Below are positions 4,478-59,125 of a stretch of 64,000 nucleotides of DNA, piece after piece. The notes under the pieces are model-generated. The model saw only the letters and a program-made list of their open reading frames with translations, searched no databases and was not told the DNA's origin. Within the stretch, counting starts at the first letter, position 1. Each line of letters starts with the position of its first letter. The stretch is from Arbacia lixula (lineage: Eukaryota; Echinodermata; Echinoidea; Arbacioida; Arbaciidae), in NCBI GenBank assembly GCA_963669155.1, contig OZ022580.1:18358090-18422089 (forward strand), written 5' to 3'. The position numbers and the translations under genes were made by a program.

Positions 4478-7400
4478 TATATTTTGGTAGGCATTCTTGG
4501 CCGGGCCGCGGGGTAAGAATAACATACCGGGCGCTCATGCAGGGACCTGGCTATGCACTCATCTCTCCCTTGAGACAAACCCACCAACCCACAGGCATGC
4601 ATCAGGGATGGCCCAAGACCCTCTCGTCTACAGTAGATAGTAAACTACCACAGCTAGAAATGTGGCTAGAGAAACAGCGCTGAGTGCATGCGTAAATCAC
4701 CCTCATACATGAACAGACATTTATTTCTTCCTCTAGGTCAAGTCAGAGGCATGATAATTCATTTTGGCTACTTGTCTAAGTTTGCTCCTAGCTATAATGT
4801 TCAAGAGTTTTACCCTTAACTTTATCATTAATATTGGCATGAAGATGTGCATATACTAAGCCAATGGGTTTCCCAAGGCTCAATAATGCAAGGGTTAAAA
4901 GCTGTTGTTATTTTTTTTAATGTGAGCTACGTGAATGAAATCTAAATAGAAGCAGATAGGTAAATTTAAGGAACAGTTTGAAGTAGTCAGACTGATAATA
5001 TGAAAGTTATTCATGATTGAAAATTCAGTTCACTGTACTAAACCGTGAAGGGTCATACTGACTATCTCACTTGTCCCTGAGTCTGATAGATGTGCTAGGC
5101 ATTGTCTTGTGAATGCATTGTGGTTTGAATGATTACCATTTCCACACACTTGAGACTTTCTAAATGTTTATCTGAATTTCCTTGGGGGGTAGCTGGTGGT
5201 GATCTGAAGCACACTAGCAACATTCATTCCAGAGTGCGAGATTCGTCCGATTATGGAAATTCGCTCGACAACTTCACAATTGCGGTTCGCCATATCCTTC
5301 GCTAACGCTTTCTAGCTCCTCATGCTTCCATTCCTATTAGGACTCTTTCATCTGCCCCTCCCCCTCCCATCCTACTGTTGATTCAGCAACAGACACAATT
5401 CACAAAAAGTCATTACAAGCCCTTGAAACTTTTTGTTGGGGCGGACAAAGGCCCCCCTTTTCCTTCCTGAGCTACCCCCAGACATGCTCCAGAGTGGGCT
5501 GGGGTAGGTCAAAAGAAATGACAAGCGAGTTGCATTCTTGGGCAGATCAGCTGCATGTCTTAAGCCCACTTGAGCACCGCACTCCAAGACAGGAGACTAA
5601 AGCACTTTCACTTTAACCTAATTCTTTGGGTTTCCCTTCACCTGGACGGTAAGTCCTCTGTCCCCGCAGTAGCTGGAACATTGAGAAGAAGAGAGAGAGA
5701 GCTTCACTGCAAACATTCAACATTCAACATGAGCAAATAGTCAATGTGGCCATGAATGCTTCTGTGTGTGCCAAAAGGATGTAAACTCCATTTTCTTCTT
5801 TTGGGGGGGTTACTGGTAAATAGAAAATTGCATTGATAGACCAGAACTGATCGATATTCAATGATTGAATCTGCATCAAGCGCAGTGGCTGTACAAGTAA
5901 GGACAAATGATTTGAGTATAATCTTTCATTTGTTTGAGAAAATGATGTGTAATTCACTCTTTGCATTGATAGGATTTATCCATAAATAAATGTGTGCATA
6001 TTATCTCCATAACTCTAAAAATGTTGTTAATGACCTTTTGGCACAGACCTCAGACAATGGGTGCTGCTTCCGCTGGGGGACAAGATACATTTTTGGGATG
6101 AGTTTCTTTATCGTTATCTTACGTAATCTTTGTTTGATTTTTCAGGACAATGCAAAGTGATTCATGACTTAATAGCATTGCATTCTCCCATAAGCACTAT
6201 TGATGATAGACAGGTGATTCATTGTATTTTTCTTTCTTAAATGTGATTTTCGTAGAATTGTGATGAAATCAAGACCGTCATAAAACATATCATGATGCAG
6301 TGCATGATGTATGAGCACGTTTCTGAGTGAAAAGCATGACTGAAATATGTTGGTCACGACCTCCTATTTGCGGTTCCATTCAGCAGTTTCCTAGATGGCC
6401 GCTTGAATAATTCATCAATGCCTCTAAGTCTTATTCGAGTCAGTCTATCCGTCTGTTTGTATGTCTGCATACATGTGTGTGTATGTCTCGCTGGAGAGAT
6501 GAATTACTCTCCAGAAACTTTCATTCAGTTCCTTATGCAGCATTTGTCAAAACTCTAAATAATGCAAGTTGCACAGCAGGCTTTCCAATATCTCAATCTG
6601 ATGTTTTTACACTATCACACATCAGTGTTCGTGCCCTCTGGTGTTTATTCGTAGTCTCTATTTGTAGCCATTCTCTCAGCGCGATGAAGTAATTATGAAT
6701 ATTTTAATGAATAATCACTATCGTCTCATCCATTTCTAATCAAAGCAGCATCCATGCAGTAGCGATGTCTTATCTTGTTTTTAAGACAGAAGAATTGCTA
6801 GAGCTTTTCATTTGTGAAAACTGCATTTCAATGGGTGCCTGTAATGCATGGACATTACTATTGGCTCAATCTATGTTAGGTGGCATGCTGCTATATTGGC
6901 ACAATGTGTACTAATTGTGCCAATATGCACCAATGGTTCAGATGCATCTCACTCCATAAGTAACCCCAATATCCCCTTGATTAATATTGAAATGTCATGA
7001 GGTATGTACAAAACAGGTCTCTCAGAATCCAGAATCCTGACAGATTTGGGGTTTACAACAAACAAGAGTTTCGTCACGTTTTCCAGTATTATTTCTTGAC
7101 TGGCTGGCAAGTGTCTGTGGCTGTGCCTGTTCCGTGAATAATGCATGCGTGAGAACAGACACTGAGCTTTCGGTTTGGGCCTAGACGGTTTACACCTCGG
7201 CCTGTTCACACTGTTAAGCCTCTCCTCCAGTGTAAAGAGGTGTTCAGTACTAGTACATGACCCTGTTTACACAAACTACAGCTCCGAACACAACAATCCT
7301 TTGAATTGCCACACAATCACTACATTATGAGCAACCTTTCCTCATCTAGTTTCACTTTTATGAACGTAATTCTACTTTTCAGAGCTTTACATTCAGTATT

Positions 7401-28115: not shown

Positions 28116-28120
28116 CTAGG
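28116..28120. other. Target site duplication of outer element (left)
   Basis: CTAGG immediately before the element end ACCCC. The same five bases follow the opposite end at 29075-29079. Confidence 0.85.
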
Positions 28121-28281
28121 ACCCCATTTACACTCAAGAAAATTGCGTGGCCAGGCCGGGCCGGGCCGGGCCGGGCTAGGCCAGGCCGCGCAATTTCTGT
28201 AGTGTAAACACAAAAAAATGCGAAAAGGCCAGGCCGGGCCGGGCCGGGCCGGGCCGTACTGAGACCAGCTCAGGAGGTAGT

Positions 28282-28286
28282 CTGAG
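28282..28286. other. Target site duplication of inner element (left)
   Basis: CTGAG directly before the inner ACCCC end. It is repeated at 28751-28755 directly after the inner GGGGT end. The uninterrupted site can be read inside the inner copy itself as the same junction without insertion. Confidence 0.85.
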
Positions 28287-28750
28287 ACCCCATTTACACT
28301 CAAGAAAATTGCGTGGCCAGGCCGGGCTGGGCCAGGCCGCGCATTTCCCCGCTGTGGGTGGTAGCGTGGCCTGGCCGCGCAATTTGTGCGTTCACACTAT
28401 ACAGCGAAAATGCGTGGCCAGGCCACTGACATCAACCCACCGTGCGAGGCGCACTGCACGTAAACAAAAGGTTGAGCATAATGACGTCATCTGACATCAG
28501 CGGAATTTGCATAACCGGCCGCGCTTTCGGCCCGGCCTGGCCTCGTTTGTGTTCATACTACGAAAATTGCGTGGCCGGGCCGTACTCAGACTACCTCCTG
28601 AGCTGGTCTCAGTACGGCCCGGCCCGGCCCGGCCCGGCCTGGCCTTTTCGCATTTTTTTGTGTTTACACTACAGAAATTGCGCGGCCTGGCCTAGCCTAG
28701 CCCGGCCCGGCCCGGCCTGGCCACGCAATTTTCTTGAGTGTAAATGGGGT
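28287..28750 (+). mobile_element. Inner copy of the same transposon, inverted, inserted into the outer copy
   Basis: 464 bp with the same accccatttacactcaag ends as the outer copy. Read in reverse, it matches the outer copy's two halves joined together. The main difference is about 20 extra bases in the outer copy near 28876-28910. The inner copy's own counterpart of the insertion point (about 28575-28600) is intact, which shows which copy was the target. High similarity between copies suggests the events were close in time. Confidence 0.88.
28482..28512. promoter_or_regulatory. CRE palindrome and POU octamer in the inner transposon
   Basis: TGACGTCA at 28482-28489 is followed by ATTTGCAT at 28505-28512 (ATGCAAAT on the other strand). 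These match the consensus sites of CREB/ATF and octamer (POU) factors. Binding is inferred from motif identity only. Confidence 0.4.
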
Positions 28751-28827
28751 CTGAGTACGGCCCGGCCACGCAATTTTCGTAGTATGAACACAAACGAGGC
28801 CAGGCCGGGCCGAAAGCGCGGCCGGTT

Positions 28828-28858
28828 ATGCAAATTCCGCTGATGTCAGATGACGTCA
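28828..28858. promoter_or_regulatory. POU octamer and CRE palindrome in the outer transposon
   Basis: The same pair in opposite orientation: ATGCAAAT at 28828-28835 and TGACGTCA at 28851-28858, with the same 15-bp spacing as in the inner copy. Confidence 0.4.
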
Positions 28859-29074
28859 TAATGCTCAACCTTTTGCCTGCACGTTGTTTGTCTCCTGCGC
28901 TGTGTGTGCGCCTCGCACGGTGGGTTGATGTCAGTGGCCTGGCCACGCATTTTTCGCTGTATAGTGTGAACGCACAAATTGCGCGGCCAGGCCACGCTAC
29001 CACCCACAGCGGGGAAATGCGCGGCCTGGCCCGGCCCGGCCTGGCCACGCAATTTTCTTGAGTGTAAATGGGGT

Positions 29075-29079
29075 CTAGG
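29075..29079. other. Target site duplication of outer element (right)
   Basis: CTAGG directly after the terminal GGGGT, matching 28116-28120. Confidence 0.85.
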
Positions 29080-29305
29080 GCTATCTGTCATTGGACGAAG
29101 GTTTGCGGAAACAGCACTGTTTCTCTTCTAAGATTTTACCAAAGTTACATACTGCACTTTCTGCATTACTGCACTATTCAGCTTACACTAACATGCTATT
29201 GGCTTCTATCAGGCCAATGCAGCTGCAATATAAAACTAACTATCTTCCCGAAGACATACATCTGGTTATTTTAAAGCTTCGGTCCAATAAGACCCTCTCA
29301 CCTGA

Positions 29306-57752: not shown

Positions 57753-59125
57753 TGAGAAGAGGAAAGGAGAGGGGAGAGAGGGGAGAGAGGGGAGAGTGGG
57801 GAGGGAGAGGGGAGGAAGAGGGGAGGGAGAGGAGAGGGAGAGGAGAGGGAAGGGAGAGGGAAGGGAGAGGGGAGGGAGAGGAGAGGGAAGGGAGAGGGGA
57901 GGGAGAGGGGAGGGAGAGGGGAGGGAGAGGGGAGGGAGAGGGAGGGAGCGGGGAGGGAGAGGGGAGGGAGAGGGGAGGGGAGGGAGAGGGGAGGGAGAGG
58001 AGAGGGAGAGGGGAGGGAGAGGGAGGGAGCGGGGAGGGAGAGGGGAGGGAGAGGGGAGGGGAGGGAGAGGGGAGGGAGAGGGGAGGGAGAGGGGAGGGAG
58101 AGGGAGGGAGAGGGAGGGAGAGGGGAGGGAGAGGGGAGGGAGAGGGGAGGGGAGGGAGAGGGGAGGGAGAGGAGAGGGAAGGGAGAGGGGAGGGAGAGGG
58201 GAGGGAGAGGGGACGGAGAGGGGACGGAGAGGGAGGGAGCGGGGAGGGAGAGGGGAGGGAGAGGGGAGGGGAGGGAGAGGGGAGGGAGAGGGGAGGGAGA
58301 GGGGAGGGAGAGGGAGGGAGAGGGGAGGGAGAGGGGAGGGAGAGGGGAGGGAGAGGGGAGGGAGAGGGAGGGAGAGGGAGGGAGAGGGGAGGGAGAGGGG
58401 AGGGAGAGGGGAGGGAGAGGGAGGGAGAGGGGAGGGAGAGGGAGGGAGCGGGGAGGGAGAGGGGAGGGAGAGGGGAGGGGAGGGAGAGGGGAGGGAGAGG
58501 TGAGGGAGAGGGGAGGGAGAGGGGAGGGAGAGGGGAGGGAGAGGGGAGGGAGAGGGAGGGAGAGGGAGGGAGAGGGGAGGGAGAGGGGAGGGAGAGGGGA
58601 GGGAGAGGGAGGGAGAGGGAGGGAGAGGGGAGGGAGAGGGGAGGGAGAGGGGAGGGAGAGGGGAGGGAGAGGGGAGGGAGAGGGGAGGGGAGGGAGAGGA
58701 GAGTGGAGGGAGAGGAGAGGGAAGGGAGAGGGAGGGAGAGGGGAGGGAGAGGGGAGGGAGAGGGGAGGAGAGGGAGAGGGAGGGAGAGGGAGGGAGAGGG
58801 GAGGGAGAGGGGAGGGAGAGGGGAGGGAGAGGGAGGGAGAGGGGAGGGAGAGGGAAGGGAGAGGGGAGGGAGAGGGAGGGAGAGGGAGGGAGAGGGGAGG
58901 GAGAGGGAGGGAGAGGGGAGGGAGAGGGGAGGGAGAGGGGAGGGAGAGGGGAGGGAGAGGAGAGGAGAGGAGAGGAGAGGAGAGGAGAGGAGAGGGGAGG
59001 GAGAGGGGAGGGAGAGGGGAGGGAGAGGGGAGGGAGAGGGGAGGGAGAGGGGAGGGAGAGGGGAGGGAGAGGGGAGGGAGAGGGGAGGGAGAGGAGAGGG
59101 AGAGGAGAGGAGGGGGGAGGGAGCA
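57753..59125 (+). repeat. G-rich homopurine satellite, about 1.37 kb
   Basis: The + strand is almost entirely G and A, with only a few C or T in more than 1.3 kb. The basic unit is agaggggaggg (11 bp), with 10-bp (agagggaggg) and 16-bp (extra ggggaggg) variants arranged in higher-order patterns. A pure agagg pentamer run lies at about 58957-58990. GGG runs every 4-7 bases satisfy the G4 rule almost throughout, and the mirror symmetry suits H-DNA. Open frames up to 511 codons on both strands (Pro/Ser/Leu or Gly/Arg/Glu) exist only because purine-only DNA has few stops. Confidence 0.97.

Follow-up and report, generated by a model that had tools for sequence, protein, structure and literature searches.

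The NuwaII group of the PIF/Harbinger superfamily (PHIS) is described, in the portions of PMC4482050 that treat it, as having a C|TNA|G target and a two-gene parent, with most of its ends beginning in GG. Section 8 of that paper reports that the NuwaII empty sites left the choice between a 3-bp and a 5-bp duplication undecided, with 3 bp judged the most likely. In rice, two PIF/Harbinger proteins mobilise the MITE of the mPing/Ping system; PMC2836001 gives for it a preferred target extended to 9 bp in plants, and both PMC2836001 and PMC4561436 give a 3-bp duplication.

Here we describe a locus in a 64,000-nt window of Arbacia lixula DNA (the window being the whole stretch that was analyzed) where an element at 28120-29075 is interrupted by an inverted relative. 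We are highly confident that this is a nested pair of PIF/Harbinger-type MITEs formed by sequential insertion. The two elements would be non-autonomous and would descend from a single parent with a transposase, each through an internal deletion of its own. A 487-bp copy inserted first, into C|TAG|G with duplication of TAG. A 466-bp copy in the opposite orientation later entered its centre, at C|TGA|G, with duplication of TGA. Mobilisation would have taken place in trans, by the HTH/DDE transposase of the parent and its Myb/SANT partner.

Layout of the nested locus

All features are given on the + strand of the window. The outer element is flanked by TAG on its left (28117..28119, following the 3-bp parse obtained from 84 copies) and again on its right (29076..29078). 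Its first part (28120..28285) is the right arm, which starts with GACCCC and includes, at 28283-28285, the left TGA that flanks the inner element. The inner element (28286..28751) is 466 bp long, belongs to the 464 size class (named for its ACCCC-to-GGGGT span of 464) and is inverted relative to the outer one; its right TGA follows at 28752..28754. The second part of the outer element (28755..29075) ends with GGGGTC and belongs to the 485 size class, the whole outer element measuring 487 bp with both end bases.

The inverted arms of this arrangement pair 28120-28286 with 28585-28751 (167 nt, 99%), 28465-28591 with 28749-28875 (127 nt, 99%) and 28275-28410 with 28951-29086 (136 nt, 96%). When the insert is removed by a scripted excision, the outer copy and the reverse-complemented inner copy align over their full length. 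They differ by a single internal block and by a small number of one-base changes, and a 2-base gap in the alignment stems from the point chosen for the cut. Removal of the insert together with one TGA leaves a 485-base span that carries the majority base of six 485-class copies at 485/485 positions. The inner copy departs from the 464-class majority only at the neighbouring positions 412 and 413 of the 464 span, and these two changes are absent from all others of the 41 464-class copies compared. Scans of the window with Rfam (gathering threshold) and for tRNAs returned zero matches.

The inverted arms and the alignment after excision bear out the original prediction that a transposon lies within a relative of opposite orientation. 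Its claim that the target and the order of events can be read directly also holds: the junction is intact in the inner copy, whose centre has the target once, and the outer copy now has it twice. The description of the insert as the outer element's own twin needs modification: it is a relative in opposite orientation, but one from a sister subfamily, the 464 and 485 classes having different internal deletion points.

Two other repeats were observed in the window. Positions 57754-59123 hold a 1.4-kb, almost purine-only tract with a GGAGAGGGGAG unit in ~127 copies and a strong strand skew, and a 131-base unit is present in 2.9 tandem copies at 586-959.

Family copies, element ends and the length of the duplication

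The assembly searched comprises 607 Mb in 590 contigs. A 27-base end, allowing up to 2 mismatches, matched the genome 92 times forward and 91 times in reverse, while the reversed-pattern control gave 0 and 0, so the nest is not a chance pattern. For the census we used the left arm as a probe with at most 3 mismatches, and it thus covers copies that have this arm, leaving out 70- and 80-base versions and right-arm-only copies such as L073. It found 88 copies in the assembly, 85 of them exact to the probe. The family is homogeneous, with 30/44 copies of the 464 size class identical. Two pairs of left-arm copies lie less than 20 kb apart. One is the window locus (657 bp, opposite orientation); the other, on C13, is a same-orientation pair at 320 bp. 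The third-closest pair among the 88 is separated by 193 kb. The C13 locus (L077) is an independent second nest.

To score ends and flanks, 110 loci were reduced to 90 by setting aside 20 repeat views or follow-up slices. Of these 90 loci, 7 were one-ended or odd, and the others yielded 85 two-ended elements, two loci contributing a pair each; L099 was left out because its flank was too short, which gives 84 scored copies. Several unusual copies were seen along the way. L019, L061 and L064 are 70-, 70- and 80-base versions that consist of little beyond both inverted ends and keep target-like flanking bases. By eye, L104, L106 and L108 each have one end without its outermost 7-8 bases and the other end intact. 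Three of the 84 (L015, L041 and L109) directly abut a related GACCCC end of another element, sharing the 3 bases between. A BLAST of the flanks for diverged relatives gave no matches, and this search missed the related ends adjoining these three copies.

G precedes ACCCC in 83/84 copies and C follows GGGGT in 83/84, the exceptions at the terminal bases being L006 and the truncated L104. Beyond them, the next-outer base is C in 73/84 copies and G in 63/84. Flanks of 3 bp are equal in 64/84 copies and flanks of 5 bp in 44/84; where 3 bp agree and 5 bp do not, the odd base is on the flank in 20/20 copies and never beside ACCCC or GGGGT. The C13 nest adds an empty site, since the uninterrupted centre of its inner copy is the empty site for the outer copy. 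The resident sequence ACCAGCT became CCAG|GACCCC...GGGGTC|CAGC on filling, which indicates that the added G and C were brought by the element. Together, the flank-side discordances and this empty site establish a target duplication of 3 bp, which at the window locus reads as TAG outside and TGA inside.

One alternative, which we find very improbable, is that the duplications are 5 bp long (CTNAG) and the element is not of PIF/Harbinger type. The identical 5-bp flanks of 44 copies agree with it, and both window duplications fit: CTAGG (outer) and CTGAG (inner) do adjoin the ACCCC/GGGGT ends, as first reported. It is refuted by the placement of the differing base on the outer flank in every copy sharing 3 but not 5 bp, and the C13 empty and filled sites also speak against it. 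The 5-bp duplications of the original prediction are therefore replaced by TAG and TGA, the outermost G and C belonging to the element. On the evidence of the 84 scored copies and the C13 nest, its ACCCC/GGGGT ends become GACCCC...GGGGTC, and the check that it proposed, whether 5-bp duplications always accompany ACCCC ends, fails in the copies without equal 5-bp flanks.

Local inverted duplication or template switching within one element, with no second transposition, would explain why long arms with 96-99% identity are common to both partners. It is contradicted by the data and we regard it as exceedingly unlikely, given that the inner and outer copies are different deletion classes, that the inner copy has complete ends and lies between two TGAs where the uninterrupted copy has one, and that the nest at C13 has the other relative orientation. 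That the A-B-A'-B' block is one composite mobile unit is equally hard to credit: its outer ends are complete and its outer duplication is present, but an opposite-orientation pair less than 20 kb apart occurs only once, at the window locus, among the 88 left-arm copies, which means that the block does not form a composite unit, and its 954-bp span is found in no other of the 85 two-ended elements. Recurrence of the full block, named at the outset as what would count against nesting, was seen nowhere among these 88 copies, the sole other close pair being the same-orientation C13 nest; the block is unique among copies with the left arm. Sequential insertion of two MITEs remains the reading that we adopt below.

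Target preference and self-insertion

The target profile, from 53 symmetrised sites, is (A/T)C-TWA-G(A/T) with weaker G/C shoulders, or loosely GACTWAGTC; its core has C in 85%, T in 71%, A or T, A in 71% and G in 85%. A target matrix was built from 62 sites with the two nested sites excluded. The top two sites that it finds in the 464 element, a CTG site (11-mer at 313) and a TCA site (11-mer at 296), are those used by the self-insertions at C13 and in the window, respectively. By the same matrix, the element overall is a poor target, at 0.12 per base vs. 0.81 for the rest of the window.

Nested MITEs have been the subject of earlier work in plants. For the 88 copies here, the expected number of self-hits is 0.003 under uniform insertion and 0.0004 when scaled by the matrix, and two nests were observed. 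With n = 2, the excess of self-nests over chance is no more than suggestive. Local hopping may contribute to it, as may weak selection within MITEs.

The second self-nest, in the same orientation, occupies 1000-2081 of L077 (C13:8209834-8212913). This locus also has an extra 149-base half copy, joined via TAA at a site whose empty sequence is CAG.

Unequal 3-bp flanks are present in 20/84 copies, one of them (L104) owing to a truncated end, a higher share than one would expect of elements so nearly identical. Such flanks could result from exchange between copies, from carried donor bases or from joins made in the assembly. The idea that most unequal flanks are a single base apart, which an annealing model predicts, was not supported: among the first 67 copies, 9/14 differ by one base vs. 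47% expected for random pairs, and this test gave no separation between copy exchange, carried donor bases and assembly joins. A more far-reaching reading, which on balance we think improbable, is that these elements enter their own kind far more often than sequence preference allows, for example because transposase on a resident copy attracts the incomer or because hops go to a sister or homologous copy. In that reading the many unequal flanks would come from donor flanking bases that travel with the excised element and are at times joined at the new site; the TAA junction at the CAG site of L077 hints at such carried bases.

A candidate parent element and relation to known systems

Internal deletion of a coding parent is a usual origin of such MITEs. 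One copy, on C11 (L086+L072), has the same left arm, ending GGGGTC and then TAAG, together with part of the right arm, the outer ~210 bases of which are missing. Between its arms are a Myb_DNA-bind_4 gene (1.6e-16 at L086:1880-2374) and, on the opposite strand, a two-piece transposase. Exon 2 of the latter matches DDE_Tnp_4 at 6.6e-21, above cut-off, and exon 1 matches DDE_Tnp_4 at 7.4e-4 and HTH_Tnp_4 at 1.3e-4, both below Pfam's cut-offs. Among the 150 places scored of 272 DDE_Tnp_4 candidates, only the C11 place is less than 15 kb from a left-arm copy. A protein search found exon 1 at full length in the C11 copy. Six further census copies, on C14, C8, C21, C10, C13 and C16, hold 5' pieces of this exon that are 91-97% identical, and the next relatives are 66% identical. 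Graded derivatives of the parent keep pieces of the transposase.

Measured against the C11 left arm and the C12 (L073) right arm, the 464 class consists of 182 + 286 bases of the two arms, which share 4 bases where they join; for the 485 class the figures are 169 + 317 bases. Since the arm lengths kept differ between them, the two classes seem to have arisen from one parent by separate deletions. No copy that combines both ends with both genes was found in the assembly, an intact source being either absent or missed. The sequences show the nesting, its order, the 3-bp duplications, the target preference, the homogeneity of the family and the arms shared with a transposase-bearing copy; we infer that the C11 transposase moved these copies, that it did so by cut-and-paste and that the movement was recent.

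In a 1296-base copy (L054), a block of ~620 bases at ~5223-5842 that is unlike the C11/C12 slices lies between two parent-derived pieces. It has inverted GCGTGCTTTCGATC ends and is possibly another inserted element.

The elements are short and non-coding, derive from a coding parent by internal deletion and occur in many homogeneous copies, as is characteristic of MITEs. The superfamily features of PHIS are also present, namely a 3-bp duplication, an HTH and DDE_Tnp_4 transposase in the parent, and a second, Myb/SANT gene. PIF/Harbinger elements and Tourist-type MITEs, as covered in the pertinent parts of PMC4482050, likewise have a 3-bp duplication with TTA and TAA as the commonest two, a G-initial end, a DDE_Tnp_4 transposase with a separate Myb/SANT protein, and internal-deletion derivatives. 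The TWA rule of the PIF/Harbinger group sensu stricto is loose in this family, where TTA or TAA accounts for 29/64 equal duplications, the remainder being TAT, ATA, CTA, AAA and others. With NuwaII, as that source presents it, the family shares the conserved C and G around the 3-bp duplication (C outside in 73/84 copies, G outside in 63/84) and the two-gene parent. It differs in having ends that begin with GA rather than GG, and the TNA target of NuwaII is found in only 30/64 of the equal duplications.

In a homogeneous family, self-insertions supply their own empty sites, by which element and target bases can be separated and the duplication read as 3 bp. This bears on a point that the empty sites in the paper defining C|TNA|G could not settle (PMC4482050, section 8). 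The present sequence data agree with 3 bp for this family, a candidate member of NuwaII. The locus also shows which of a 485-class and a 464-class insertion came first, and it indicates a candidate pair of parent genes.

The likeness to mPing/Ping is that of a MITE moved by two proteins, with a 3-bp duplication and an extended target, the movement in the Arbacia family being deduced from sequence. The rice system is from a different organism, and we take its element to be unrelated to this family. Placed beside these systems, the locus is real and of a known kind: an ordinary nested pair of young MITEs of PIF/Harbinger type.
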